IMG/VR virus record: IMGVR_UViG_3300027733_000028
Span: 143,041 to 207,040 of that record
Reading direction: 5' to 3' (one strand)
Origin: a virus
Length of the DNA: 64,000 nucleotides
The position numbers and the translations under genes are program-made. Below, one piece after another: positions 23,065-37,916 of this stretch (position 1 is the first letter of the stretch; each line of letters starts with the position of its first letter). The notes under the pieces were generated by a model that ran no database searches, had not been told where the DNA came from, and saw only the letters and a list, made by a program, of their open reading frames with translations.

Positions 23065-24153
23065 ATGACAATATCTCAAAAGCAATTTAGTGACTTCCGA
23101 GAAGACGCACTAAAAAATCAACCACTCCGCAAGGAAATCGCACTAGCCGATATTCGTTTCGTCACTATGGATGCAATCGAATATGCCGGTTTAAACTTTG
23201 GACTTGCTCGTCCTGCACTTAAAGATCTAATGCGTATATTAGGTGTAAACATGAATATCGAATCTCGCTTATCTGAATCTATCGGTGAGGATGGTGCGAG
23301 GAACTTCCTTAATGGTCTAAGATCTGCACTATCTAAATCAGCCGGATCTATTATCTTATCGGTTACACCAGATCGCATCATTCAACGTATCACTAAAGGT
23401 GGAAAAGAAACTTCACTCTTTACTGCACCTACCTACTTCAATACAGTAGATCGCTTTATGAATACCAACTCCGGTATGGAAATAAAGGATATGCACTTCA
23501 ATCGCGAAACAGGTGGAATATCGCTCTCTGCGGCTTCACCCAAATCAGAATTTAACGTGGGTAACTTTAACGATGAGGTTTTCCATGGAGGATTAAATCT
23601 CTCTATCACTGCCGATGGAATTAAAGCCGCTCCTTATCTACACCGTCTAGTGTGTACGAACGGAATGGTAACACGTTCTTTCGAGGAATCCTTTAATCTT
23701 AATCGCAACACCACTGAAAGTTGGACTTCCTTCTGGCAGAATCTAGAAAGAATCGAACACTCTGGATTTCAACCCATCGCCTTTACCAACAAGGTACTCG
23801 CTGCGAAAAACACTACTGCTTCTTTCGCTGAGATGGAAAGATCAATGAACCTCATCCTAGGTAATTCAAAATGTGATCTAGACAATCTACCCCAATTCAT
23901 CAATTACCGTCCGACCTTCAATCGTCTACACTCTACAGGAATCGATACCCTGAAGTTAACACCAGGACAGAAACGCAATCTACGTACTGGCTTAACCATG
24001 TGGGATTGCATTAATGGAGTTACCGATTTTGCCTCACACAATTATGGTTTTGAAAAAACAGCTAACTGTGATCGCCACTTACAGTTACAAGCTGGTGATA
24101 TCCTCACTAAGGACTTCGACACACAAAACCTAATCCTGAATCAACCTTACTAA
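23065..24153 (+). CDS. DUF932-like phage protein
   Basis: 362 residues. Several segments recall DUF932/YfjQ proteins of phages and plasmids: HGGLNLSITADG, RLVCTNGMVTRSF in the middle, and MWDCINGVTDFASHNYG near the end, with FNVGNF and long helices between. No enzymatic motif is seen. Such proteins are often highly expressed early, function unknown. It is followed by a terminator. Confidence 0.55.
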   Translation: MTISQKQFSDFREDALKNQPLRKEIALADIRFVTMDAIEYAGLNFGLARPALKDLMRILGVNMNIESRLSESIGEDGARNFLNGLRSALSKSAGSIILSVTPDRIIQRITKGGKETSLFTAPTYFNTVDRFMNTNSGMEIKDMHFNRETGGISLSAASPKSEFNVGNFNDEVFHGGLNLSITADGIKAAPYLHRLVCTNGMVTRSFEESFNLNRNTTESWTSFWQNLERIEHSGFQPIAFTNKVLAAKNTTASFAEMERSMNLILGNSKCDLDNLPQFINYRPTFNRLHSTGIDTLKLTPGQKRNLRTGLTMWDCINGVTDFASHNYGFEKTANCDRHLQLQAGDILTKDFDTQNLILNQPY

Positions 24154-24198
24154 GAGTAAGGAACTGCGAGTGGAGAAAACCACTCTAATTTGATAATA

Positions 24199-24234
24199 CC
24201 ACTAAGGCTGCTCACTAGAGTGGCCTTTTTGTGG
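24199..24234 (+). terminator. Terminator-like hairpin with U-run
   Basis: Nested arms CCAC/GTGG and AAGGC/GCCTT with a small inner CAC-TAGA-GTG hairpin and five Ts within the right arm. A second hairpin, GAGTGG-AGAAAA-CCACTC, stands at 24168-24185. Together they probably end the DUF932-like transcript. Confidence 0.6.
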
Positions 24235-24270
24235 TTTACACAGCGAGACTGCCCTATTACTCACCTTTAC

Positions 24271-24556
24271 CACCTAGAAGAGACTAGATACCTTCTAGTC
24301 TCACCTAATAAGGGCCTGTACAGATCTAGACCAGCAAAACAACATCCTACTAGATCTAGATCTTAACAAGAAGAGCCTAGATAGACTAGATGAGTACTAG
24401 CAGTGTACTAGTAGGATCTATTAAGGCTAGAAGCAGACTAGAAGAGCTCAATATATCCACATATAGGACAGAAGAGTGCTATAAAGACTCATATATACTC
24501 ATTATATCACCGATAGATCATCTAGAAGCCGCTGAGGTGAGCTATAGGGACTAGAA
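24271..24556. repeat. CTAG-dense block with hairpins
   Basis: About 14 CTAG tetramers in 286 bases, where one or two would be expected. Perfect hairpins include GAGACTAG/CTAGTCTC (24280-24302) and TACTAG/CTAGTA (24395-24413), both with 7-base loops, plus the 12-bp palindrome AGATCTAGATCT (24352-24363). No reading frame fits. Confidence 0.7.
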
Positions 24557-25159
24557 AGTCAAAAAAAGGTCACAAAAAGCCAAAAAGGATCACTTTTAGC
24601 CAAAAAGGATCAAAAAGGCCACATGTGCTCCTCGTAATCCATGTCTTGTCCGCGTTAACGTCCCGTGGAAGTCCAGTCCTGGCTAGGGCCCATGAAATTC
24701 CGGACATTTTTGACCCTCGAAACTTTGGGCCGGAAATAAGGCGACGCACATCCCACTCTATACGGAAAGCCCTTTCTGGTAACGCGAGTAAGAGAAGCCC
24801 AAAGGCCTTTTTAAAAAAATTTTCCAGACTATATAGGATCTCTCGAAACTCATTGACTAATATATAGAGTAGCCGGTGAGTCTTTTTAAACCTTTCTGAC
24901 TCTTTGTTTTGCTCGAAGGAGAAGGTACTGACAGAGTGAAGACGGCTACTTTGTTTACAGTAATCTGTTAATAGTAAACTCTTACCCGACGCAAACGACG
25001 AGGGGCCATCCAGACTTCTCTGATGGTTTATTTCGCATCCCTCTTTTATACTCTCGGTATAAATTCGAGACCTCGATTGAACTGCCGATACCGCGACTCG
25101 CATCTGATAACCACGATAAATAAACCATATACTCGATCTTACCGGCGAATCGTGTAAGT
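24557..25159. other. Gene-free stretch, G+C-richer, with a short tandem repeat
   Basis: It opens with a 20-base tandem repeat (AGCCAAAAAGGATCA at 24578 and 24598, then a partial third copy). Beyond that I see no promoter and no credible gene; open frames on both strands here have poor composition and no support. With the CTAG block this makes about a kilobase without genes in an otherwise packed genome, perhaps a replication origin or RNA gene. Confidence 0.5.
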
Positions 25160-25167
25160 CATATAAA
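25160..25167 (+). promoter_or_regulatory. Candidate late-type promoter, CATATAAA
   Basis: CATATAAAAA, 15 bases before the next ATG, at the right edge of the gene-free kilobase where a new transcript must start. Confidence 0.35.
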
Positions 25168-25174
25168 AACTAAT

Positions 25175-25501
25175 ATGGAAATGAAAACTGTAATGTACTG
25201 TTCAACTATTGAAGATGCACGAGAGTGTATTGAAGATGATACGACGATATTTCCGCTTCTCGAAAGAGCTCTGATTACCATGTGGAAGACAACCTCTCAC
25301 TCTGAGGAAGTTCTAGAAATCCGTTGTATGGATGTAGGTGCTTCTATGTGGGTAACTCTCCGTCGAAGTGAGTGTGATGAAGTATGGGAGAAGATCATCA
25401 CTTGGAGAAGTGGAAGAGAAGAGTGGGAAGAACTGACGGTACTTAAAGATATTCGAGATGAGTGGTTCAACTCTAAGAAGGTTGTGGAGCCAGTCCATTG
25501 A
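25175..25501 (+). CDS. Hypothetical protein, 108 aa
   Basis: An acidic protein with many Glu and Trp residues and a central EEVLEIRCMDVGASMW strand pair. It lies alone between the gene-free kilobase and the packaged-protein island, and lacks the N-terminal peptide of that island. Family unknown. Confidence 0.65.
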   Translation: MEMKTVMYCSTIEDARECIEDDTTIFPLLERALITMWKTTSHSEEVLEIRCMDVGASMWVTLRRSECDEVWEKIITWRSGREEWEELTVLKDIRDEWFNSKKVVEPVH

Positions 25502-25511
25502 AAAAAAAAAG

Positions 25512-25609
25512 CCCTCCAGCGTTCAAACTCTGAGTTTCAGGAATAAATAGAAATATAAACGAACAAAAAAGCGCGCAGCGGCTTCCACCTCTGAGTACCA
25601 AGAATAAAT
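25512..25609 (+). repeat. Imperfect direct repeat before the capsid-targeting island
   Basis: Two related ~40-base units, both with CAGCG, then CTCTGAGT and GAATAAAT (25528-25548 and 25589-25609), period 61 bases. The second copy runs into the ATG at 25608. The ATAAAT part of the first resembles the late-type element, so the repeat may hold the island's promoter. Confidence 0.5.
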
Positions 25610-25985
25610 GAAATCAATACCTACATATCACGAATTCCTTAATGAGACCGTCTCATTTAATACCGATACTACTGGTCGTGAAGATTGGGATGATGATCTA
25701 AAGAAACATTCTAGAGATTTTACTCAATCTATAGTAATAATGAGTCCGATGGATTTCTTGAAGAGAGTTCAATATCACCGATTTGAGATTAATAAATCTA
25801 AAGTGGCTAATTATGTTAAAGAATTTCGTGGTAATGTCAAAGGAATTCCAGCACCAACCATGTGGTTCTCTGATAAGTTTCAATACGATAAAGGACTTGC
25901 TCCTGCTTTTCATGATGGATCTCATCGCATGCTAGCTCTACAAGAAGTAGGGATACGAGAAGTTCCGGTTAAAATTATATACTAA
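25608..25985 (+). CDS. Capsid-targeted protein with ParB/Srx-like motif
   Basis: Residues 1-13 (MKSIPTYHEFLNE) match the shared capsid-targeting-like peptide, with predicted cleavage after LNE. The C-terminal part ends AFHDGSHRMLALQEVG...VPVKI, similar to the DGxHR...GxxxVPV box of ParB N-terminal/sulfiredoxin-fold proteins, which in the wider family includes nucleotide-binding and DNA-nicking enzymes. The activity is open. First of nine proteins with this N-terminus. Confidence 0.65.
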   Translation: MKSIPTYHEFLNETVSFNTDTTGREDWDDDLKKHSRDFTQSIVIMSPMDFLKRVQYHRFEINKSKVANYVKEFRGNVKGIPAPTMWFSDKFQYDKGLAPAFHDGSHRMLALQEVGIREVPVKIIY

Positions 25986-25986
25986 G

Positions 25987-26607
25987 ATGAAAAACATTCA
26001 AACATACGAAAGCTTCTTAAATGAACTTCGACATTCAAAAGAGTTTTTAATAGACCTATTTTCTAAAATGGATATTTTAGATAATGATGTATACAAAAAC
26101 ATTTTAATCCATTACATTGAACAACCACAAAATTTAGAAAAACAAGAGTTCATTGATTTAGTTTCATGGTTGATCCAGAATAAAAACAAGTACAGTGAAG
26201 TACTAAAGCCTAAAAATGGATATGCATACAGAGGAACTTCAATAACTCCTGATATGTTTCATAAATTAAAAAATGGATTATCAAAAAAAGAAGGTGGTAT
26301 AAGCATATTTAACTTTCCTTATACCAGCGAATCAGAAGCACAAAGTTGGACATATGATTATAAAGTAGCAATGAGGTTTGCGGATAAAGGTCTTTTAAAT
26401 AACCCTAGATTAGAAAAAGGAGCTAGACCAGCTATTTTAAGAGCTAAGATAGATGATACATTTGTAGGTAATCCTAAGTTGACTGGTCCCATAGCTGACC
26501 GATTAAGTCTGAAGTCCGAAAAGGAAATATTTCATTTAGGGAATTCTATAAAAGATGCTGAATGGATGATATTCTCAGCCGATATAGAATTAGGAAAATT
26601 TAATTAG
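25987..26607 (+). CDS. Capsid-targeted ADP-ribosyltransferase candidate
   Basis: After the N-terminal peptide MKNIQTYESFLNE the R-S-E class ADP-ribosyltransferase triad can be traced: R82 in AYRGTS (NAD binding), YTSES at 112-116 followed by the FADK helix, and E178-x-E180 in SEKEIFHLG. T4 Alt, an ADP-ribosyltransferase injected from the capsid that modifies host RNA polymerase, is the clear precedent. Target unknown. The start is one base after the previous stop. Confidence 0.75.
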   Translation: MKNIQTYESFLNELRHSKEFLIDLFSKMDILDNDVYKNILIHYIEQPQNLEKQEFIDLVSWLIQNKNKYSEVLKPKNGYAYRGTSITPDMFHKLKNGLSKKEGGISIFNFPYTSESEAQSWTYDYKVAMRFADKGLLNNPRLEKGARPAILRAKIDDTFVGNPKLTGPIADRLSLKSEKEIFHLGNSIKDAEWMIFSADIELGKFN

Positions 26608-26617
26608 TATAAAGACT

Positions 26618-27016
26618 ATGAAATCAATATCGACATATGATGAATTCTTAAATGAGTCTATTCGTGCAGAAGAGGCTTATCGAGATACAGGAGCTATTCA
26701 AACCGTCATTGATGGAAAGAGAGATATGGGATTCATTACCATCAAATCATCGGTTGATGTGAGCGAAAAAGAATTCTGGACATTGGTGAAGATACACGAT
26801 CTGAGTACCATTCACCTATCTGGAAATGAATATGATGCCTATATCTATTATCATAAAGGAGCCGAGCGAGGTGCCAGAGAGCTAGCGAAGATTGCTAACA
26901 AATACGGTGGATATCTATCACATGAAGCGACTGAACGAGAATCTCGTCGAATAGGCGAACTTCTAGGTTACGATCGACGAGACATAGATGATTATATAAA
27001 GAAAAACTACAAATAA
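26618..27016 (+). CDS. Capsid-targeted protein of unknown function
   Basis: It has the shared N-terminus MKSISTYDEFLNE; residues 14-132 form a compact alpha/beta body with YDAYIYYHKGAERGARELAKIANKYGG, possibly a nucleic-acid-binding helix-loop. No catalytic motif is clear. The stop overlaps the next start by one base. Confidence 0.65.
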   Translation: MKSISTYDEFLNESIRAEEAYRDTGAIQTVIDGKRDMGFITIKSSVDVSEKEFWTLVKIHDLSTIHLSGNEYDAYIYYHKGAERGARELAKIANKYGGYLSHEATERESRRIGELLGYDRRDIDDYIKKNYK

Positions 27017-27171
27017 TGGATAATGGAAAACGTAATCAATTAAAACCTGTGAGAATCGCTGATGTTAATAAGTTGGTGGCTAATGATCCGAGGATTCTTA
27101 TTAAAGTTAATCATAAAGGTGGAAGTGGAGTTTCTCTTATGAACACTAATAAAATTAAAGACCGAAAATAA
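27016..27171 (+). CDS. Small basic protein, 51 aa
   Basis: A short frame with ATG overlapping the previous stop (TAATG) and ending two bases before the next start, so it fits exactly between its neighbours. Sequence starts MDNGKRNQLKPVRIADV and has repeated Lys/Asn. It lacks the targeting peptide. Confidence 0.6.
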   Translation: MDNGKRNQLKPVRIADVNKLVANDPRILIKVNHKGGSGVSLMNTNKIKDRK

Positions 27172-27173
27172 GA

Positions 27174-27878
27174 ATGAGAAAGATAGCCTTATATGAGCAA
27201 TGGATAAATGAAATTGGTGATTCATCAGCCAAGCCATTCAAATGGAGTAGTCCTGTTATCGCTGTTAATATGAAGAGATGGATAGATGATTGTATCGAAG
27301 GAGCTGCAGACAAGAAGATGAGTGGAACTCAAGAAGATATTTACTATAAAACTAAAACATTTAGATATGAATTCCGATCGGATGTGACTAATACAAATTA
27401 TCATGTACACATCGGTGGATTTGTTGGTAGAAATATCTGGATTGCCTTTCAAGGAGAAAAACCTAAAGATTGGGTTGGATATCATATAATTGCCGGATTA
27501 GGATTTGGTGTTGAAGGAGATTTCGATAAAACTACTAATCTTAATGAACAATTCCGAGTAATGGCAACCGTTACCGAATGTGCCATTGATTTTCTACAAC
27601 GATTCTTGGATGATGGACGAATCAAGATTGATAAATTTCACATGAAACCTAAGGCCGATCACGAAGAACAAAAAGGAATAGATTCTCGTCGAGCTAAACT
27701 ATATGCCCCTTATATTAAAGCCGCATTCCGCAAACTCAAAACGAAGAAGGATTATTACATAGATCAAGAGGCAGATGGATTCGTTCTTCATTTCGGAAAG
27801 GTCATAATGAACTCTCCTTATTCCACTTCAGTATTAGCATCAACCTTTGAAAATGAAGAATCCAATGAAATCAATTAA
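27174..27878 (+). CDS. Capsid-targeted protein, 234 aa, unknown function
   Basis: The shared peptide here is MRKIALYEQWINE. The body has a beta sheet (YEFRSDVTNTNYHVHI, NIWIAFQGEK) and a segment FRVMATVTECAIDFLQRF...SRRAKLYAPYIKAAF that recalls a widespread phage family with FRVxATV...SRxxLY motifs and unknown role, perhaps acetyltransferase-like. It overlaps the next gene by 14 bases. Confidence 0.6.
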   Translation: MRKIALYEQWINEIGDSSAKPFKWSSPVIAVNMKRWIDDCIEGAADKKMSGTQEDIYYKTKTFRYEFRSDVTNTNYHVHIGGFVGRNIWIAFQGEKPKDWVGYHIIAGLGFGVEGDFDKTTNLNEQFRVMATVTECAIDFLQRFLDDGRIKIDKFHMKPKADHEEQKGIDSRRAKLYAPYIKAAFRKLKTKKDYYIDQEADGFVLHFGKVIMNSPYSTSVLASTFENEESNEIN

Positions 27879-28935
27879 GCTATATGAAGCCTTCTTAACA
27901 GAAGGAGGCTGGGCAACAACCAAAACACAAGGAACCGTTCTGACTCCAGCTGTTATCGCTGAGGTTGTGAAGGTTATGGATCTGATCAATACGGGATTCA
28001 ATGGACATTTGAGAGAGCTTGAACTTCCCACTCTAGATATTCTAAAACCTATTGGCAGTGGAACTTGGTGGAGTGAAGATGTGACCGAACAACCAGACAA
28101 AACTTATGGAGATGTCGATTACATGGTTGCCTATCCCACTTTGAAGCTCACTGCTGGTCGTGATAGAGAAGATGAGATTGCTACGGTGAAGCTATACAAT
28201 ACCGAGCTGCTCATGTGGTTAGAGGAAGAAGGTATCACCGATGTAGATATTGATGAGACGAAGAAAATATCTTCGGATGTTTCTCTTAAGTTAATTGCGA
28301 TCGTTCCCTTTAATGGAACTGATGCATATGTTCAGGTTGATATGGTTGTTACTCACAAAGAGTATAGTGATTGGGCAGTATTCCGTATGACTCCTATTCG
28401 TAACGTTAAAGGTTTTGTGCTAGGAAATCTCTACTCTTCATTTGGTGAAGTTCTAGATTTGTCTATTCAGGCAAGAGGAGTAAGAGCTAAATTTGAAGGT
28501 CAGGTTATGAAGCCTTATTCTAAACGAGCTAATGTTGAGGATCGCATCATCTCACAAAATGCTGAATCATTCATGACCGATATCGCTCGTTTCTTTTGGG
28601 AACAGAGCGGAACAGATATTCCATTCACCGCTACTCCTATCGAATCTTGGAAGGGAATGGATCGCAACTCTCCTCGATTCGAAGATCTAGCCGAAGGAAT
28701 TCGTCTGGTTGCCGAGACACTAGGTCAGCTAGACGAATTTGGAACTACTATTAAATACAAATCAGCTGCTGATCTACTAAATGCAGTGATTGCTCAATAT
28801 ACGAAGAAGATGATGGAAGCTTATAATTCTGCTAAATTTGATAAGGCAGAAACTCCAGCAGCAAAAGCCATTATCACTAAAGTTAGAGCAACCATTGACG
28901 AATATATCAGTCTGGCTAAATCACTACTTACATAA
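27865..28935 (+). CDS. Capsid-targeted nucleotidyltransferase-fold protein
   Basis: I start at MKSIKLYEAFLTE, which aligns with the other targeting peptides; the longest frame adds six residues. A polymerase-beta-type nucleotidyltransferase core is visible: PIGSGTWW (64-66), D83-V-D85 in YGDVDYMVAYP, and third acid D159 in YVQVDMVV. Such enzymes add nucleotides to RNA, antibiotics or proteins (AMPylation, toxin MNTs). Host target unknown. A smaller protein with the same triad is at 58765. Confidence 0.65.
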   Translation: MKSIKLYEAFLTEGGWATTKTQGTVLTPAVIAEVVKVMDLINTGFNGHLRELELPTLDILKPIGSGTWWSEDVTEQPDKTYGDVDYMVAYPTLKLTAGRDREDEIATVKLYNTELLMWLEEEGITDVDIDETKKISSDVSLKLIAIVPFNGTDAYVQVDMVVTHKEYSDWAVFRMTPIRNVKGFVLGNLYSSFGEVLDLSIQARGVRAKFEGQVMKPYSKRANVEDRIISQNAESFMTDIARFFWEQSGTDIPFTATPIESWKGMDRNSPRFEDLAEGIRLVAETLGQLDEFGTTIKYKSAADLLNAVIAQYTKKMMEAYNSAKFDKAETPAAKAIITKVRATIDEYISLAKSLLT

Positions 28936-28942
28936 AAGTAAT

Positions 28943-29317
28943 ATGTTATACTATTCACCAAAAATTGCAGTCGGAGAATCGACTGTAGCAGGCAGAGGTG
29001 TATTTGCCATAGCCGATATAGAGGCTGGAGAGGTACTTGAAGAGTGCCACTTCTTTTTACTAACTAATGGTAATCATTCAGCTATGGATGATACTTTAAA
29101 AGAGATGGTATTCGCATGGCCGGCATATAATGATGTTCATCAATTTGCTGTTGTACTAGGCAGTGGAACTGTTTATAATCATTCATATGAAAACAATGCA
29201 ACCTGGGATACTGATGAAGCTAAATGCTGTTTCAGATTTTCTTCTACTCGAGACATAAAGGCCGGTGAAGAGATATTCACAAATTATAACCGAAGCGGAG
29301 GAAATCACTTTGATTGA
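28943..29317 (+). CDS. SET-domain protein, putative lysine methyltransferase
   Basis: Starting at MLYYSPKIAVG gives a 124-residue minimal SET domain: STVAGRGVFA (GxG), GSGTVYNHSYENNATW (NHxxxPN-like SAM knot), and RDIKAGEEIFTNYN (GEExxxxY). SET proteins transfer methyl groups to protein lysines. It has no targeting peptide although it sits within that gene island. An upstream in-frame ATG lies inside the previous gene. Confidence 0.8.
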   Translation: MLYYSPKIAVGESTVAGRGVFAIADIEAGEVLEECHFFLLTNGNHSAMDDTLKEMVFAWPAYNDVHQFAVVLGSGTVYNHSYENNATWDTDEAKCCFRFSSTRDIKAGEEIFTNYNRSGGNHFD

Positions 29318-29323
29318 TAAATA
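29317..29323 (+). promoter_or_regulatory. Candidate late promoter, ATAAATA with conserved leader
   Basis: The sequence ATAAATATAAAAACACACAA after the SET gene is nearly identical to ATAAATATAAAAACAAACAA upstream of the LamG gene on the other strand. ATG is 27 bases downstream. The shared leader makes this the strongest ATAAATA-type site. Confidence 0.5.
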
Positions 29324-29343
29324 TAAAAACACACAAAAGCTAA

Positions 29344-30261
29344 ATGGCTAATTCAACATACACAGATCTTCAAGTTCTTATTCAACGAATAAGAGGTAAG
29401 CGAGTTCTTCTTCTTACAACATCTAATAGATGGAGTGGTGATGAAGGAGGAAAACCTAAATCTACTCAATTGGCTGAGTTAATAGCCAGATCTTTATACG
29501 ACGATTCAACGGATTCTACTCTTTGTAAAGTAATAGATATTCCATCTCTCAATATTCACAACTGTGAAGGTAATGTATCTTCCGGAAGTGGTAATGGTTG
29601 TGGAGTTAAGGCTGCTGCCCTAAAGGATACCACTAAAAATCCTACTGGTAATCTTCGTTGTTGGGCTTCTATTAATAATGCCGATGATGAGTTATGGAAA
29701 GTTAGTAATGCTATATTCGAATCAGATGTAGTCCTCTTCTTTGCTTCTACAAGATGGGGTCAGGCAAATGCATTCTATCAAAAACTTATCGAACGTCTAA
29801 CTTGGTTAGAGAATCGTCACACTACTCTTGGTGAATCTAATCTACTAGGAAATATTGAAGCTGGTGGATTCTTCATTGGACACAATTGGAATGTAGAAGA
29901 TGTAATGAATACTCAAAGAACGGTACTTCAGTATTTCGGATTTCAAGTTCCACCTCAACTTTTTCTTCACTGGCAATGGACTAATAGTGATACTAACGAA
30001 ACTCAGAAAGGATATGAAGCTGATGCTAAAGACTTCAAAGAGGTTTGGAAAGTTGGAACATATCCTTTAGAGGAAAGTTTTAATCGTTGGTTGAATGAAG
30101 CTGGTTATGATGCTGGTTCTAGAAAACCTACTCCGGAAGAGGTTGAAATGTGCAAATCTCCAGAAGGATTTAATCAGATAAACCACTGCAAAGCTTTAGG
30201 ACTTACTCCTCGTGAAGATGGAACCAAAGCCAAATCTAAAAAATATGGTGGTGACGCATAA
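29344..30261 (+). CDS. NADPH-dependent FMN reductase/flavodoxin-like protein
   Basis: A flavodoxin-like fold is suggested by KRVLLLTTSNR (first strand and phosphate loop), KSTQLAELIARSL, and FESDVVLFFASTRWGQANAFYQKLIERLTW, the typical PxYxxxxPxxLKxxxDR-like region. The middle holds a Cys-rich Gly/Ser segment (CEGNVSSGSGNGCG). It may reduce flavin or a quinone; it lacks the targeting peptide, and why it is in this island is unclear. Its stop overlaps the next start. Confidence 0.65.
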   Translation: MANSTYTDLQVLIQRIRGKRVLLLTTSNRWSGDEGGKPKSTQLAELIARSLYDDSTDSTLCKVIDIPSLNIHNCEGNVSSGSGNGCGVKAAALKDTTKNPTGNLRCWASINNADDELWKVSNAIFESDVVLFFASTRWGQANAFYQKLIERLTWLENRHTTLGESNLLGNIEAGGFFIGHNWNVEDVMNTQRTVLQYFGFQVPPQLFLHWQWTNSDTNETQKGYEADAKDFKEVWKVGTYPLEESFNRWLNEAGYDAGSRKPTPEEVEMCKSPEGFNQINHCKALGLTPREDGTKAKSKKYGGDA

Positions 30262-31043
30262 TGAAACCGATAAAACTTTTTGAAGATTTTATTAATGAAT
30301 TCGATACAGGTAAAGTATTACTAGGTGATCCTTCTTTATTGGGTAGACCTAATAAATGGGAAGATCTCGGAATAGAGTTTGAACCTAATACTGCTGACAA
30401 AACTCAATTAATACAATTGATAAAAGATTGGATTTTTAAAGTAAAGGCAGATCCAAAGATGGGACATATCCTTAAAGAATTGCTGCCCTTAAAAAAGAAG
30501 TTTCCGAAAATATTAGAACCATCTGAAGGTAGATCCGTCTATGAAGGTACTTCTCTTTATAGAGGAACTATAATACCATTTAAAGAAGTGTTATCACTAA
30601 AGGGTAAATGGAAACGTAACGACGCGGTTGATATTTTTGGTGGTAGCCTAAATCTCAGTACATCATATAATTGGGAAAGTATTAATAGAAAGGGATTCAC
30701 TTCGTTTACACCATCTATCGAAATAGCGGCCACTTTTGCAGGAAGCCTTAGTTCAGAAAATTATAACGAAATTGTAGCATCTAAAACGGTTGTTAAAAGA
30801 TTATTAGATGGATCCATTGATGGTATGATTCCGATGATTATTAAAATTAAAGACACACATCCCTTAGCAATTATGAATCCGGTGTTTACTCAATCAATTC
30901 ACGAATTCATGAATGAATTTGAGGTATTTGTTGTTGGAAATAAAATCCGGGTTGATGAAGTTATAATTCCAGGATGGCATTACTACGAAAGAGATGCTAA
31001 AGAATTAGGAGTAGATCTTACAAAATATTTTAACATACAATGA
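30261..31043 (+). CDS. Second capsid-targeted ADP-ribosyltransferase candidate
   Basis: N-terminal peptide MKPIKLFEDFINE, then a helical lead and the R-S-E triad: R101 in SLYRGTIIP, FTSFT at 146-150 with the following AATFAG helix, and E219-x-E221 in MNEFEVFV. It keeps all three ADP-ribosyltransferase sites better than the first paralogue. The two share little sequence apart from these, so they may modify different host proteins, as T4 Alt and ModA/ModB do. Confidence 0.78.
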   Translation: MKPIKLFEDFINEFDTGKVLLGDPSLLGRPNKWEDLGIEFEPNTADKTQLIQLIKDWIFKVKADPKMGHILKELLPLKKKFPKILEPSEGRSVYEGTSLYRGTIIPFKEVLSLKGKWKRNDAVDIFGGSLNLSTSYNWESINRKGFTSFTPSIEIAATFAGSLSSENYNEIVASKTVVKRLLDGSIDGMIPMIIKIKDTHPLAIMNPVFTQSIHEFMNEFEVFVVGNKIRVDEVIIPGWHYYERDAKELGVDLTKYFNIQ

Positions 31044-31648
31044 AACATATCCAAGGTTTTAATACATTCCTTAATGAAGGCGAAGGTTTATTTGCTGATG
31101 CCGGTAAAGGATCTACTAAAGGAATTGGATATGGAACGCCAGAAAAAGCTAAAGAGACTATTAAGATCGCTGACAAAATGAAGGCAGACGATCCAGGAAA
31201 AGCCGTTCAAATCGTTAATGCCATGCTCAATCGAGCTAAATACTCAAATGGTCAGAATGATGGCATGAGAGCAGCAATTCCCATCTTTCAAAAATGGTTA
31301 AAGGCCAATCAAGCATCTGAATCATTTTTAGGAGTTGATGAATTCATTCTAGAAAAACTTTGGCAAAAGGAAGTAGAATCTTCTCACCTTAACGAAATTG
31401 AATATGACTCATCAACTGAAGAACTAACTATTACTTTTAACAATGGAGACCGCTACAGATATTATGAAGTTCCTAAATCCATCTTCCGAGAATTTGCCAA
31501 TGAGAAAACTATTCTAGGAAAGATTGGTGGAGGAATTGTCAAAGGAGCCAAGAAGCTATTTGGTAAGGATATTGACGAAGGTACATATGGTAAAAAATTC
31601 TGGTCACTCATTCGTCGAGGTGGCTATCAATACGAAAAACTCTCATGA
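31040..31648 (+). CDS. Capsid-targeted protein with C-terminal KTSC domain
   Basis: The targeting-like start is MKHIQGFNTFLNE. Residues ~128-202 form a KTSC domain (ITFNNGDRYRYYEVP, IFREFANEKTILGK, FWSLIRRGGYQYEKL). A linker in between includes DEFILEKL, which could be a second (L/I)xE cleavage site. It overlaps its neighbours by four bases on each side. Function unknown. Confidence 0.68.
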   Translation: MKHIQGFNTFLNEGEGLFADAGKGSTKGIGYGTPEKAKETIKIADKMKADDPGKAVQIVNAMLNRAKYSNGQNDGMRAAIPIFQKWLKANQASESFLGVDEFILEKLWQKEVESSHLNEIEYDSSTEELTITFNNGDRYRYYEVPKSIFREFANEKTILGKIGGGIVKGAKKLFGKDIDEGTYGKKFWSLIRRGGYQYEKLS

Positions 31649-32310
31649 AAGAAATAAAATTATATGAGCAATGGCTCAATGAAATCGATGGTCCTGCAGA
31701 TGGATCTCTATTCGGTACATCCGGAGTAGATTTTGGATTCATCGGTCTGCAAGATCCAGGAGACACACCAAATTCGTTTGAACCTAATATGGTTGAATCC
31801 TTTATTATTGATCTTCTTCAAAGACACAATAATACCGTTCCTTCTCCTGGCACACTTACCGTCGAGTATCTTGAAGATATCGAAAAGGTACAAACCGGAA
31901 TGAGTGATAAAGATCGATCATTTGTTCAGGCAGTTAATAATAATCCTATGGCTTTTCATGTTGAAGATGCCAAGAAAGCTGGTATTGATCTAGATGGTAA
32001 ATGGTTAACTGAATGTTGGGATTATGCTACCAGTGTAGCAGGTACTGCAAAAGATATTTGGAAAGTAAAACGTCCATTTGAATTAAGCTCAAAAGTCAAG
32101 GGGTTGGTTCCTACTAAATCCTTCTCATTTCCTTCAACTAATGCGGCCGGATCTTTTTATGTAGCAAAAAAGGTTGCAGAGAAATATCCTCAATTGAAAG
32201 AATCTCAAATGGAAGTGGCTACTCAAATAGCAAATTCACGAGTTGTTGCCGGTGTGCATCATCCATTAGATATTGCCGTTGGAAAAATGTTAGCCTTAGG
32301 CTTATTATAA
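31645..32310 (+). CDS. Capsid-targeted PAP2-type acid phosphatase, altered motif
   Basis: After MKEIKLYEQWLNE and a ~110-residue helical region comes the PAP2/class A phosphatase signature: K136-x6-R143-P144, then PSTN at 163-166 where PSGH is usual, then S198-R199-x5-H205-x3-D209. The nucleophile His205 and phosphate-binding Lys/Arg are kept, but the PSGH histidine that protonates the leaving group is Asn, so activity may be changed. Possible substrates are nucleotides, lipid phosphates or phosphoproteins. Confidence 0.75.
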   Translation: MKEIKLYEQWLNEIDGPADGSLFGTSGVDFGFIGLQDPGDTPNSFEPNMVESFIIDLLQRHNNTVPSPGTLTVEYLEDIEKVQTGMSDKDRSFVQAVNNNPMAFHVEDAKKAGIDLDGKWLTECWDYATSVAGTAKDIWKVKRPFELSSKVKGLVPTKSFSFPSTNAAGSFYVAKKVAEKYPQLKESQMEVATQIANSRVVAGVHHPLDIAVGKMLALGLL

Positions 32311-32864
32311 TGTTCAAGAAATTTAGACAATTCATTAATGAAGATATTCATATACCTTCCGGTAAATGGATAGACACTGACCTTAAAGGTCAGGATGATG
32401 ATATGATGCAACTCATATGGACAATGTATACTGACACATACTCTAAACAAGGATTAGATTTCTCTGCCGATGATTATGCTGAACTTAAAACTAAATACCA
32501 AGCAACATTCTTAAAGGATGTTGACCATGATCGTATTCCAGATGCCTTTATTATATACAAGAAAACGAAGTATGGAAATAAGATTGCTCTTCTAGGAACT
32601 AATGATAAGAAGACTGCAAAACGAGATCTTCTAGAAAAAACTATTTCATTACTTAAAAATCCTGGTTGGTTGTTAGAGGCCTCTCGTAAAATGGAAGAGA
32701 TTCTTTCAAATTCAAATGTTCCTTATATTGAAGATCCTGAAATCATTGCTGATATTGTCGGTAAAGACAAGAAACCTGAAATGGTTAAACATGGATATTA
32801 TACAAGACTTCTTTCAAAAACACCAAAGCGTATCTTAAAACGCATGTATGGTAAGGTCAAATAG
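32310..32864 (+). CDS. Capsid-targeted protein, acetyltransferase-like family
   Basis: The last of the series, with a shortened peptide MFKKFRQFINE. The body (DVDHDRIPDAFIIYK, YGNKIALLGT, KRDLLEKTISLLKNPGWLLEAS) resembles a phage family sometimes annotated as N-acetyltransferase-like; I can see no acetyl-CoA loop, so that is weak. Its start shares the last base of the previous stop. Confidence 0.6.
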   Translation: MFKKFRQFINEDIHIPSGKWIDTDLKGQDDDMMQLIWTMYTDTYSKQGLDFSADDYAELKTKYQATFLKDVDHDRIPDAFIIYKKTKYGNKIALLGTNDKKTAKRDLLEKTISLLKNPGWLLEASRKMEEILSNSNVPYIEDPEIIADIVGKDKKPEMVKHGYYTRLLSKTPKRILKRMYGKVK

Positions 32865-32948: not shown

Positions 32949-35900
32949 ATGAGAAACAAACATATGAAAAATCCTATTTTAATTTGCCTGTTACTATTTA
33001 ATTTAATTGTAATTGGACAAACAACACCTAAAGAAAGATACATAAACAATTCTGATTATCTTTCTAAAAACTCCTTAGTCGATTACAAAAGCTATTACGG
33101 AGATTCCATACAAGGATTCGACGAAGCAGCTATGAAAGTTGAACTACTAAGACGAAACGTTTTTGGTTCAGAATACATCAACTACATTGCTCTTGTAAAA
33201 AGAGAATGGGTAAATCAAAAGTACGGTATCAAACCTGTACTACCTATCAATTCAAACAACCGACCTATTGGAGGTCCTAACTCAGTTAATTCACCTGGTA
33301 ATGCTTGTGTGAATGAAGACTTTGAGCTTACTGCACCTGGAGCTTATAATGGAATGAATTCTGTTTTAGGATGGACAATTCAAAGTGGACAAAATACTTC
33401 CAATATCTGTTGTGGAAATCCTACATATGGTGCTGGCTGTGTTGCTAATCCTATTGCTAATTGGAATGCAGGTAGTCCTGAATTTTCTATTGTTGCTACT
33501 CCAATACTACCTGCTCCTAGTTGTGCTAATCCTCCTGGATTTAGTATTGACAATGTATCAATACCTAATTCACCTCTTGGCGGTAACCGAGTTGCAAGAC
33601 TACAAAACTCATGTCCAACCGGTTTGATGACTCGAATTATGACACAATTTCCTGTTTCAAATTCTAATACCTTATTTCAATTTTGTTATGCTGGTTCATG
33701 GGATGGTGTTCATGAATGTTGTGGACAACCTGCTTTTAGAATCGATATGTATAATTGTACAGGTTCATTAATCCCAATACCATGTGCCAATGTAAGCCTA
33801 ACTCCTTCCGGACAATCTTGTCAAAGTGGAGTTCCTGGATATCAGGTAACCAGTGGAGTTTCATGGGTTAATTGGCAAACAAAATATATTGACTTAACTC
33901 CTTATATTGGTCAGTGTATTAGAATTGTGGTAACTTGCTCAGATTGTTCTTATTCTGGACATCATGGAACTGCTTATTTTGATGCAAGATGCGGTGGTCA
34001 ATTAGTTGGAGTTGGATTAGGTGGAGTTGGTGGAAACATTGCAGGACCTGTTAGTTATTGTGCTGGTTCAAATCAAGCTATTATTGCCGCACCATTGGGA
34101 TACTCGTCATATCAATGGATATCTCCTATCACAGGAACAATTCCTGCTAATGCAGGAGGTACAGCTCCAGTATTAACCATAAGTCCAGTAGTTGCAGGTT
34201 TAGTGTATACAGTTCAGTTAAACTCACCATCAGGGTGTTCTTATATTGCAACCAATACAATCATGCCTACTCTTGTAAACATTGCAGGTATTGGTTCAGG
34301 CACAAGTTGTGCAGGAGGATCAAGTGGAACGGGTACTGTTCAAGGTAATGGCAGTGGCACAGGATACAATTATACTTGGGTAAATTCAAATAATGCTGTA
34401 GTTGGTACCTCAGCAACAGTAAGTGGACTGCTTCCAGGAACATATAGCGTAACTATAACTGGTCTTGGCGCTGCAGGATGTGGTTCAGCAACATCAACTA
34501 TATCAATAGGAGTTGGAATACCTCAAATGCAAAATCTATTAAAACCGTATTGTGGTTCTCAAGCCTATTTAAGTGTAACGGGTAATAGTGTTCAGTGGTC
34601 TACCAACAATACAGCTATCTCCGCTCCATTAGGAGTGGCAATGGGATACACAGTAAACAATCCAGTACAGGCTTCAGTATACACAGTTACCTATACTTCA
34701 TTACAAAATTGTAATGAAGCAGCTTCATTCACCCTAATACCATCTCCGCCGGGCAGTATATCATTACTAACTACTTCTGTTTGTTTAAACTCGACAAATG
34801 GCAGTGGAACTATTAATCTAACTCCTGCATCTGGTTCTCCTCCTGGAGCTAATTCATATTCAGTATGGAATTCTAATAATACTCCGGTTTACAATTCATC
34901 ATTGTCTCCTACTAATCAAAATAATTATTTGTTTGGAAACATGGGAACCGGTAGTTATCAAGTAAGAGTATTTGATGGTTCCTGTGCATACACAACTTCC
35001 TTTATTATACCTACTCATGTATTTTCTCCTACATTAAGTCCAACCTCAACAACTCTATGTCCTGGTGGAGGTATTGCAGCCGGAGTAGTATTTAGTATTC
35101 CACCATCATTATCTCAATACACTTACTCTTGGACACCTAATATCTTTTTAGCAGGAAACACTCAACAATCAACGATTATCATACCAAATCTTGCAGTAGG
35201 TACGCAATCAAATATAACTTACTCAGTTGTAATTACTCCTACTGCTATTAATTGTCCGATGACTCGTACATTAAATTTATGGGCAATCAATCCACCAATT
35301 CCAACTATTACTGCAATACCTAATATGTGTAACAATATGCTTCCATATCAAGTATTGGCTAATCCCAGTGGTGGTATCTTTACCGGAGTTGGAATGAGTA
35401 CATTAGGTTTAATCTCTCCGACTGCTTCACTATTAGGAATCAATAACTTTACATATGCCATTTCAATTAGTACTTGCGCATCATCTAATACTGGAAGTTA
35501 TCAGGTATCATATTTCAATACTTCATCATTAAGCTCTTCAATAAATCCTATATGTTCTACTAATTCAACAATAAATCTTATGACTATTGTTCAGAATACC
35601 TTAGGATCTTGGTCAGGTAATTATATAACGAATAACATATTCAATCCAGCAAATCTAAATGGAGTATACTCATTAACCTACAATAATTTATCAACACCAA
35701 ATCCTACAGTATGTCCTTCATCTACTCAAATGAATATATCGGTTACTAATACAATAATTCCGACTATTGCAAATTCCAATCCATTCTGTACGAATGCCTC
35801 CTCTTTTGTATTGATCGCTAATCCAAATGGAGGAATCTGGTCTAACAATTCTGCAGTGAGCGGTTTAGGTATTGTAACTCCTTCATTGACATCTCCTACA

Positions 35901-37916
35901 AATACAACGGTTAATTATGTCGTTAATGTTGGTCCATGTATAAACACAAACACATTCAACATATATCCATCAACTTTCAATACGGCTTCTTTAACTGGAT
36001 CTATCCCTAATTTATGCGTAACGAGCTCATCAATAAATCTAATGTCAATCGTACAAAATACGACTGGATCTTGGTCAGGAATGAATGTTACTCAAAACAT
36101 ATTCAACCCTTCAGGATTACCGACCGGAAATTATACTTTAACATACAATACCAACTCGGCTCCTAATGTTACTCTATGTCCAGATAACCGAACAATAAAC
36201 ATATCGGTTCTTAATCCGGCATCTCCGAACATTACTACATTCGGACCTATATGTAGCAAAGATGCTATTATGCAAATGACCGTTACTCCTAATTCTGGTA
36301 GTTGGATTTCTACTCCATATCTAAACATTAATGGAATATTAAATCCTTCGCTATGTCCTATTGGAATTAATGCCATTCAATATGTAATAGGAACTAATAC
36401 TTGTTCGGCTCAACAAACAAAAACCTTTGTGGTTGAGATGTTCATTCCATCAACGATAACAAATCAAATACCTGACTTGTGTAATACCAGCTCTCCCATA
36501 AATCTTAATTCATATTCTGGTTTTCCTGGATCTTGGTCAGGATTAGGAATCAATGGTTCAATGTTTACTCCATCGAATTCAGGAACATTAATTCTAGTAC
36601 ATACCACATCATCATCTAGTGGTTTATGTCCTAGTACGTCAAGCATATCAGTTAGAGTATATTCATTACAATCTCCAGTAATAATCAAGCCAAATTCTGT
36701 ATGTAACACATATGCGCCTTTCCAATTACAAGTAAATCCAATCGGTGGTATATTCGGAGGTAATGGATCTAATACTAACGGAATTTTTAATCCAGCATAT
36801 GGAGCGATAGGAAACAATATAATTAATTACAGCATTTCTGCCGGTCCTTGTATAGCATATGCACAGACTACTGTTAATATTGAGAAATTTATATCGGCTG
36901 ATCTAGATCGATACCCTAAAACCGTTTATTGTAAAGGTACTGAATATCCTTTTAATCTGAATTCGTTAGTCAAAAATCCAAATTATAATTGGTCTGGTCC
37001 TGGAGTAAATGGTTATATGTTCGATCCACAAATGGCAAACATCGGAAACAACCTAATATATTATCGAACGCATTCTGCACCAACGGCTTCATTATGTCCG
37101 GATGAAAAATCATTTAACATAAGGGTTGCTCAAATAAGTAAACCCATCATATCGCTATCTGATTCAATTGGTTGTGTTCCTCTTAGAGTAATTCTCAATT
37201 CAAACGAAAATACTGGATTATCTTCTTGGAAATTTAGTAATGGATATTCTAGTGAAGCCAATTCTCTTGCATATACATTTACTTCAAGCGGAATACATTC
37301 AATAATATTCTCATATATCAATGATGAAGGTTGTGTATCGCCAAATCAAATGATTACTCTTATTAGAGTTGATGAGGTACCTTTTCCCAAGTTTCAATTA
37401 CCAAAATCCATTTATGCAGGAGATTCAGAAATCCAAGCAATAAATCTAACTCCTAATGTAGGAAGTTACACTTACACATGGATGGTATCTAATGGATATT
37501 CAGTAAACACAATTAATCTTGCATACGATCCCAAGAAAATAGGCAAGTACGAAATAACATTAATTGCAAAGACGGTTAATGGATGCACGGCATCTACTAG
37601 AAAAATGATAGAGATACAAAACGAATTTGAAGTACATATCCCAAATACTTTCACTCCTAATAGAGATGGTCTCAACGATTATTTTCTTCCAGTATTTTCT
37701 GACTATGGAGTTGAGTTATCTTTTTATACACTAGAGATTTTCGATCGATGGGATCACTTAATTTATAGATCAATCGATCCTAAAAAAGGATGGGATGGAA
37801 AAGCCAAAAATGAATTATGTCAACAAGGATCCTATGTATACAGACTTAAGTTTTCTGATAAAGAGAAGAATGTGTATGAGAAGATTGGACATGTTCTCCT
37901 TTTAGGATCCGATTAA
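32949..37916 (+). CDS. Giant secreted protein with T9SS gliding-motility C-terminal domain
   Basis: 1655 residues. A Sec signal peptide follows the first or, more naturally, the second Met (32964: MKNPILICLLLFNLIVIGQ). The N-terminal third is Cys-rich and lectin-like; the middle has several ~160-180-residue Ig-like repeats sharing LMxIVQNTxGSWSG...NIFNP...CP patterns; the end (residues ~1565-1655) is a typical gliding-motility C-terminal domain: HIPNTFTPNRDGLND, FDRWDHLIY, GWDGK and GSYVYRLKF. This domain directs proteins through the Bacteroidetes type IX system to the cell surface. It may alter host adhesion or block other phages, or be a captured host gene. Confidence 0.88.
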   Translation: MRNKHMKNPILICLLLFNLIVIGQTTPKERYINNSDYLSKNSLVDYKSYYGDSIQGFDEAAMKVELLRRNVFGSEYINYIALVKREWVNQKYGIKPVLPINSNNRPIGGPNSVNSPGNACVNEDFELTAPGAYNGMNSVLGWTIQSGQNTSNICCGNPTYGAGCVANPIANWNAGSPEFSIVATPILPAPSCANPPGFSIDNVSIPNSPLGGNRVARLQNSCPTGLMTRIMTQFPVSNSNTLFQFCYAGSWDGVHECCGQPAFRIDMYNCTGSLIPIPCANVSLTPSGQSCQSGVPGYQVTSGVSWVNWQTKYIDLTPYIGQCIRIVVTCSDCSYSGHHGTAYFDARCGGQLVGVGLGGVGGNIAGPVSYCAGSNQAIIAAPLGYSSYQWISPITGTIPANAGGTAPVLTISPVVAGLVYTVQLNSPSGCSYIATNTIMPTLVNIAGIGSGTSCAGGSSGTGTVQGNGSGTGYNYTWVNSNNAVVGTSATVSGLLPGTYSVTITGLGAAGCGSATSTISIGVGIPQMQNLLKPYCGSQAYLSVTGNSVQWSTNNTAISAPLGVAMGYTVNNPVQASVYTVTYTSLQNCNEAASFTLIPSPPGSISLLTTSVCLNSTNGSGTINLTPASGSPPGANSYSVWNSNNTPVYNSSLSPTNQNNYLFGNMGTGSYQVRVFDGSCAYTTSFIIPTHVFSPTLSPTSTTLCPGGGIAAGVVFSIPPSLSQYTYSWTPNIFLAGNTQQSTIIIPNLAVGTQSNITYSVVITPTAINCPMTRTLNLWAINPPIPTITAIPNMCNNMLPYQVLANPSGGIFTGVGMSTLGLISPTASLLGINNFTYAISISTCASSNTGSYQVSYFNTSSLSSSINPICSTNSTINLMTIVQNTLGSWSGNYITNNIFNPANLNGVYSLTYNNLSTPNPTVCPSSTQMNISVTNTIIPTIANSNPFCTNASSFVLIANPNGGIWSNNSAVSGLGIVTPSLTSPTNTTVNYVVNVGPCINTNTFNIYPSTFNTASLTGSIPNLCVTSSSINLMSIVQNTTGSWSGMNVTQNIFNPSGLPTGNYTLTYNTNSAPNVTLCPDNRTINISVLNPASPNITTFGPICSKDAIMQMTVTPNSGSWISTPYLNINGILNPSLCPIGINAIQYVIGTNTCSAQQTKTFVVEMFIPSTITNQIPDLCNTSSPINLNSYSGFPGSWSGLGINGSMFTPSNSGTLILVHTTSSSSGLCPSTSSISVRVYSLQSPVIIKPNSVCNTYAPFQLQVNPIGGIFGGNGSNTNGIFNPAYGAIGNNIINYSISAGPCIAYAQTTVNIEKFISADLDRYPKTVYCKGTEYPFNLNSLVKNPNYNWSGPGVNGYMFDPQMANIGNNLIYYRTHSAPTASLCPDEKSFNIRVAQISKPIISLSDSIGCVPLRVILNSNENTGLSSWKFSNGYSSEANSLAYTFTSSGIHSIIFSYINDEGCVSPNQMITLIRVDEVPFPKFQLPKSIYAGDSEIQAINLTPNVGSYTYTWMVSNGYSVNTINLAYDPKKIGKYEITLIAKTVNGCTASTRKMIEIQNEFEVHIPNTFTPNRDGLNDYFLPVFSDYGVELSFYTLEIFDRWDHLIYRSIDPKKGWDGKAKNELCQQGSYVYRLKFSDKEKNVYEKIGHVLLLGSD

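Follow-up and report, generated by a model that had tools for sequence, protein, structure and literature searches.

The gene-free kilobase described here contains, as judged from sequence comparison, a real, conserved and previously undescribed noncoding element of ~0.6 to 0.9 kb, which occupies a fixed place in a clade of large phages. We slightly favor an untranslated structured RNA (probability roughly 0.4) over a replication-initiation site as its explanation. Large phages carry few untranslated regions, and GOLLD and ROOL, which are known large phage RNAs, are still without a function. The element offers three independent syntenic examples, a searchable core and an unusual composition signature, and is directly testable for transcription or replication initiation.

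The window (the whole stretch of 64,000 nucleotides that was analyzed) comprises bases 143041 to 207040, the end of a 207,040-base phage contig. The contigs used are possibly incomplete; two other viral contigs are identical to the window across 9 kb around the region. The phage carries T4-type genes for RNA ligase, portal, head protease, major head protein and DNA polymerase, and its head genes are Lak-like or T4-like. The closest named relatives by major head protein are huge and Lak phages of Bacteroidota (40% for Lak and 54% for LR756500; PMC7162821, PMC6784885), but the element and its core are unmatched in the public phage records searched, and the element DNA has no match among named phages. 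The host is probably a member of the Bacteroidota, as suggested by the head-protein relatives and by a 1655-amino-acid phage protein (window positions 32949-37913) with a T9SS type B sorting domain (TIGR04131), a Bacteroidota secretion signal.

A noncoding locus shared by three phage lineages

The gene-free stretch extends from the end of a 362-amino-acid gene (23065-24153, plus strand) to the start of a 108-amino-acid gene of unknown family (25175-25501, plus strand). The initial annotation had seen about 1 kb without a credible gene here, and codon scores bear this out, with positions 24154-25174 noncoding in all six frames. The longest frame encodes 177 amino acids antisense (24570-25103) and exceeds the longest in 2000 shuffles. 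It was rejected as a gene on its codon score of -0.44, compared with +0.02 to +0.37 for all phage genes of at least 150 amino acids. Reading TAG as an amino acid was also rejected, as it reveals no frame or protein common to the lineages; TAG serves as the stop codon of 19 of 209 genes in this phage. A search for a conserved protein read from the region found none: no open frame that has phage codon usage and is conserved in relatives occurs in the stretch.

At the 5' border is the intrinsic terminator of the upstream gene (24204-24227, plus strand), with 10 pairs and a T tail. From its sequence, this terminator is predicted to insulate the element from that gene. The sequence TAATTTGAT lies between the upstream gene and the terminator (24186-24194, plus strand) in the window and in the related phage L294, and is present as TTTAATTTGAT in the related phage L295. 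The 3' border of the gene-free stretch is marked by CATATAA (25160-25166, plus strand), a promoter-like motif of the next gene. CATATAA occurs within 70 bases upstream of 31 genes in the whole contig versus 1.4 expected, and is likely a phage promoter motif; the 5' end of the window element has no copy.

Related contigs were collected by using the major head protein. Two related phages, of 246 and 294 kb, have the element at the same locus, flanked by orthologues of the two genes that border it in the window: the upstream orthologue (55% and 50% identity) is followed by a gap of ~1 kb and then by the downstream homologue. Similarity to DUF932 among homologues of the upstream gene is below the cut-off, and the predicted structure of the flanking protein has low confidence (pLDDT 63). 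L296 and L298 look the same as L295 by eye, so the comparison comprises three independent lineages. Alignment of the window and L294 gaps scores 91, whereas the shuffled maximum is 42. The element is thus conserved at the same locus in two other lineages, a point on which the initial annotation had staked its proposal.

All three lineages share one order: terminator, TAG-saturated hairpin-rich domain, core of ~85 nucleotides and A/T tract. The part after the A/T tract is lineage specific, so the shared element extends from the terminator to this tract. In L295, a 126-amino-acid membrane-protein-like frame follows the core, and a small membrane-protein-like frame was read by eye at this place in L294. 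More distant homologues of the upstream gene (L306-L309, 29-33% identity; L309 seen in part) are not followed by a gap, which confines the element to the closer clade. Seven more related contigs, most of them seen in part, have neither the upstream gene nor a comparable TAG-dense gap. The element fits no Rfam family tested.

Composition and structure of the element

The 5' domain (24236-24560, plus strand) is saturated with TAG and CTAG and rich in hairpins, and its sequence varies among lineages although its composition is conserved. The initial annotation emphasized CTAG, and the density that it reported is found: 14 copies in the 286-base window from 24271, compared with 4 in the best other 286-base window of the 64 kb. 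Across the 207-kb contig, the CTAG maximum per 350 nucleotides is 15 at the element and 6 elsewhere. Local dinucleotide shuffles of 24154-24560 average 7.3 copies, and 15 was reached in 1 of 1000. In the three lineages, CTAG occurs 14, 15 and 9 times versus 1.1, 1.5 and 2.7 expected, and is a genome-wide outlier in only two. TAG, by comparison, is enriched 3.3- to 4.1-fold in all three (19 versus 5.2, 41 versus 10.0 and 36 versus 10.9 expected), and the 5' domain is the single densest TAG site of each genome (20, 33 and 28 per 350 nucleotides versus 14, 19 and 16 elsewhere). Because TAG saturation is common to the lineages, the CTAG cluster of the window is a local version of a wider property, and the emphasis on CTAG was too narrow: what is conserved is TAG saturation on the gene-sense strand, together with the core.

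TAG is biased about two to one over CTA in two lineages (41 versus 22 and 36 versus 19). One strand is therefore favored there, a pattern more in keeping with a single-stranded molecule than with duplex DNA. The 3' parts of the element have no TAG enrichment. The three 5' domains hardly align, indicating near-complete sequence turnover. The GC content of the element is 0.37-0.50 versus about 0.33 for the genomes; genes neighboring the element are also GC-rich.

Both CTAG hairpins of the initial annotation are present, with one correction. The hairpin at 24280-24302 (plus strand; GAGACTAGA-TACCT-TCTAGTCTC, in full GAGACTAGATACCTTCTAGTCTC) has 9 perfect pairs around 5 bases, rather than 8 around 7. 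The other, TACTAG-CAGTGTA-CTAGTA (24395-24413, plus strand), competes with a 10-bp helix between 24344-24353 and 24408-24417. The 12-bp palindrome, AGATCTAGATCT, lies at 24352-24363 as reported. The domain is closed by a helix whose 5' arm (CCCTATTACTCACCT, 24252-24266, plus strand) and 3' arm (AGGTGAGCTATAGGG, 24535-24549, plus strand) are paired at 13 of 15 positions. The reported 20-base repeat consists of two copies of AAAAAGGATCA..., at 24582 and 24602, and a diverged third at 24563. These belong to a set of A-rich short direct repeats (AAAAAGG-TCA, TTTTAGCCA; 24563-24622, plus strand), and repeats of the TTTTAGCCA type also precede the core in L294.

Compared with dinucleotide shuffles, the predicted fold of the 5' domain on the gene-sense strand has z scores of -3.0 (window), -3.6 and -3.25 (L295, first half). 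The opposite strand gives -3.7 (window), -3.8 and -2.5. Across 24 control windows of the phage, the mean z is -1.0 (sd 1.26), with one window at -3.6. Hairpin stability in the 5' domain is about the same for either strand, as DNA palindromes would be expected to show. This comparison of structure rests on three lineages, with the 5' domains folding without aligning.

The core (GCGTTAACGTCCCG...CATGAAATTCCGG...GAAACTTTGGGCCGG; 24652-24733, plus strand) is ungapped over its first 71 nucleotides in three lineages. It spans ~85 nucleotides with the form GCGTTAAYGWCNCG...CATGNNATTCCRG...GAAA...GGCC and a fixed spacing: in the gap alignment, GCGTTAAYGWCNCG is followed by 24 variable bases, SCATGNNATTCCRG, 12-14 bases and then GAAA and GGCC. 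In searchable form it is GCGTTAANGNCNCG-N24-SCATGNNATTCC, and a scan of 2.9 million viral contigs with a pattern derived from the core returned six matches, all six of them true and all within the clade. A looser pattern was discarded; its five added matches differ from the core outside the pattern, and those with frames listed sit in genes.

The core fold is not unusual (z of +0.7, +1.9 and -0.4 in the three lineages), no helix common to the three lineages exceeds chance, and the consensus fold is weak. Covariation in related phages, which had been suggested as a check, was not seen in the core across the three lineages, and the expected conservation is present. The core thus appears to behave as a site conserved in sequence and not in structure. 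Downstream is the A/T tract TTTTTAAAAAAATTTTCCAG (24808-24827, plus strand), whose counterparts, aligned by eye, are AAAAATTTTTTTTCCAG in L294 and AAAATTTTTTTCAG in L295.

Structured RNA or replication start

If the element is an RNA, the transcript would start where the upstream terminator ends and reach roughly as far as the A/T tract. Its 5' domain would form numerous short hairpins presenting UAG/CUAG. Being self-complementary, these motifs might permit loop-loop or RNA-RNA contacts or, alternatively, a protein with a specificity of 3-4 nucleotides might read them. The near-invariant core would carry a sequence-specific function. Consistent with an RNA are the location of the element, flanked by the same two gene families in each of the three lineages, a gene-sense 5' domain that beats shuffles in all three, the 13-pair closing helix in the window, the TAG enrichment, the terminator at the 5' border, the raised GC content and a CyVA-1-like 3' part in the window. 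Against it are the stability of the hairpins on the opposite strand, the unstructured core, the missing CATATAA at the 5' end, the GC-rich neighbors and the sample of only three lineages. With 5' hairpins whose stability does not differ between strands and a core in which no covariation was seen, an RNA is not proven. A more speculative possibility is that the element represents an undescribed class, in which selection keeps one domain saturated with a single trinucleotide (TAG, read on one of the strands) while its sequence turns over freely, and in which this domain is coupled to a core of ~85 nucleotides. Selection at the level of a trinucleotide, if true, would imply a reader specific for 3 nucleotides: a UAG-binding partner of the RNA, or a primase that initiates on CTA where replication begins.

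The main alternative is a DNA element that starts replication, which we regard as possible but not likely. To our knowledge, no replication origin has otherwise been mapped in large phages of this kind from Bacteroidota. In such an element, the palindrome- and TAG-rich zone would supply sites for an initiator or a primase (TAG reads as CTA on the opposite strand), followed by repeats, a core bound by the initiator and an A/T tract for unwinding. This layout of repeats, core and A/T tract suits an origin, as does a core conserved as sequence and not as structure. The GC-skew profile, proposed initially as a check, agrees in part. In all three phages, the raw skew changes from negative to positive at the element, and with 5-kb and 8-kb flanks no other flip on the contig is as strong; the cumulative skew has a sharp local minimum there. 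Because most genes are on one strand, the codon positions were analyzed separately. At fourfold-degenerate sites, only the third genome has an extreme flip (0.6% of positions surpass it). The corresponding shares in the other two are 12% and 15%, and the flip there stems largely from codon positions 1 and 2 and thus from gene content or protein composition. Low synonymous skew occurs in upstream genes and also in the major head gene, whose expression is probably high. GC skew was therefore set aside as proof, and with synonymous sites extreme in one genome only, the data do not prove an origin. In the phage satellite PLE, a repeat-bearing noncoding region serves as the origin (PMC7145576); the element resembles it in being gene-free, with repeats and an A/T tract, at a minimum of the raw skew. 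Unlike PLE-type origins, the element is GC-richer than its genome, with a single A/T tract, its repeats are not conserved between lineages, its skew is mostly gene composition in two of three genomes, and the flanking genes match no known initiator or replication family.

Other explanations are less probable. The stretch might be a boundary or regulatory region, that is, a terminator, insulator and control DNA between two transcription units in which TAG stops all frames. The terminator and the promoter-like motif at its two borders, the different gene skew on its two sides, and the stops that TAG and CTA place in many frames on both strands agree with this idea. It is nevertheless unlikely, as it explains neither a sequence-specific core with fixed spacing nor the enrichment of TAG rather than TAA or TGA in all three lineages, and no other gene boundary seen in these genomes is TAG-dense. 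A decayed gene or plain spacer would account for the lack of a reading frame and the fast turnover of sequence, but is very improbable given that position, composition and core are kept in three lineages at only 50-55% protein identity, and given the gap alignment score noted above. A replication origin, a packaging site and a structured RNA had all been proposed for this DNA; the origin and the RNA are kept as candidates, and packaging has no positive support. The portal and major head genes lie near 51-57 kb of the contig, and the element lies at 167-168 kb; no terminase gene was located.

Among large ornate RNAs of phages and prophages, GOLLD has a less conserved 5' region and a universally conserved 3' region, and ROOL is a second example (PMC12286853). 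Similar to these RNAs, the element is phage encoded, spans 0.6-0.9 kb without genes, is rich in hairpins and places a variable domain beside a conserved one. In contrast to them, it has no Rfam match and no covarying structure was seen in its core; the covariance models for GOLLD, ROOL and OLE found no match in the region, even at E <= 5. GOLLD, ROOL and OLE RNAs are often near a tRNA island, whereas the nearest tRNA to the element is 23.5 kb away, and the window has only two (48720 and 49140).

CyVA-1-like fold and other observations

The lineage-specific 3' part of the window (24870-24948, plus strand) includes a three-stem fold that resembles CyVA-1 RNAs (RF02965). The match of 37.3 bits (E 1.7e-6) is strong for chance, and below the curated gathering score of 41.4 bits. 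All three stems are formed, and the CGAAGGAGAA loop is shared with CyVA-1 (CGAAGGAG at 24870-24948). Perhaps a lineage-specific CyVA-1 member is joined to an unrelated spacer, and another phage contig does have a CyVA-1 RNA (43 bits) at the 3' end of a stretch of ~680 nucleotides without an obvious gene. This explanation is improbable: the match is below the gathering score, lies outside the conserved core and has no clear counterpart of the GTCG(C/T)T hairpin that accompanies true members, and among 48 related records, including both element-bearing relatives (G022 and G034), CyVA-1 has no match at E <= 0.01. By eye, at most a 5-bp AAGGU/ACCUU match occurs in the first hairpin of the window. 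CyVA-1 was also traced through viral and bacterial genomes as a possible key to the whole element, and was dropped because the relatives have no match.

Most true CyVA-1 sites have a partner hairpin outside or beside the Rfam model, with a GTCG(C/T)T loop complementary to the CyVA loop A(G/A)CGAC (L160, L161, L162, L165, L171, L183, L184, L187, L191, L194, L196 and L149). The two loops covary, with A loops accompanied by GTCGTT (L162 and L196) and G loops by GTCGCT. In sequence, the pair looks like a kissing interaction that is missing from the Rfam model. The L149 site is in IMGVR_UViG_3300028800_000090, a 66-kb contig of an unrelated phage, in which the CyVA-1 RNA (1422-1498, 43 bits, above the gathering score) occupies the 3' end of a stretch with no obvious gene (842-1516) and is followed by a terminator-like hairpin.

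The phage also encodes a 529-amino-acid TROVE (Ro60-like) protein (PF05731; L201:5813-7399, contig 65813-67399). A link between this protein and the element was considered and rejected, as neither the two relatives nor the surroundings of CyVA-1 loci yielded a Ro gene. Downstream of the element, at window positions 25608-32864, consecutive genes that are unrelated in sequence start with MKxIxxYExFLNE-like N-termini resembling those of head-targeting peptides. Within this run, one gene (26618-27013) has sub-threshold similarity to NleE, and another is ADP-ribosyltransferase-like by eye. A SET-domain protein is encoded at 28838-29314 (PF00856, E 4.6e-14). Near the end of the window, positions 62021-63545 are of low complexity and open on both strands, with a GC skew of about -0.28 and repeats in which the KEIKVFKV type is antisense to the SLITLKTL type.
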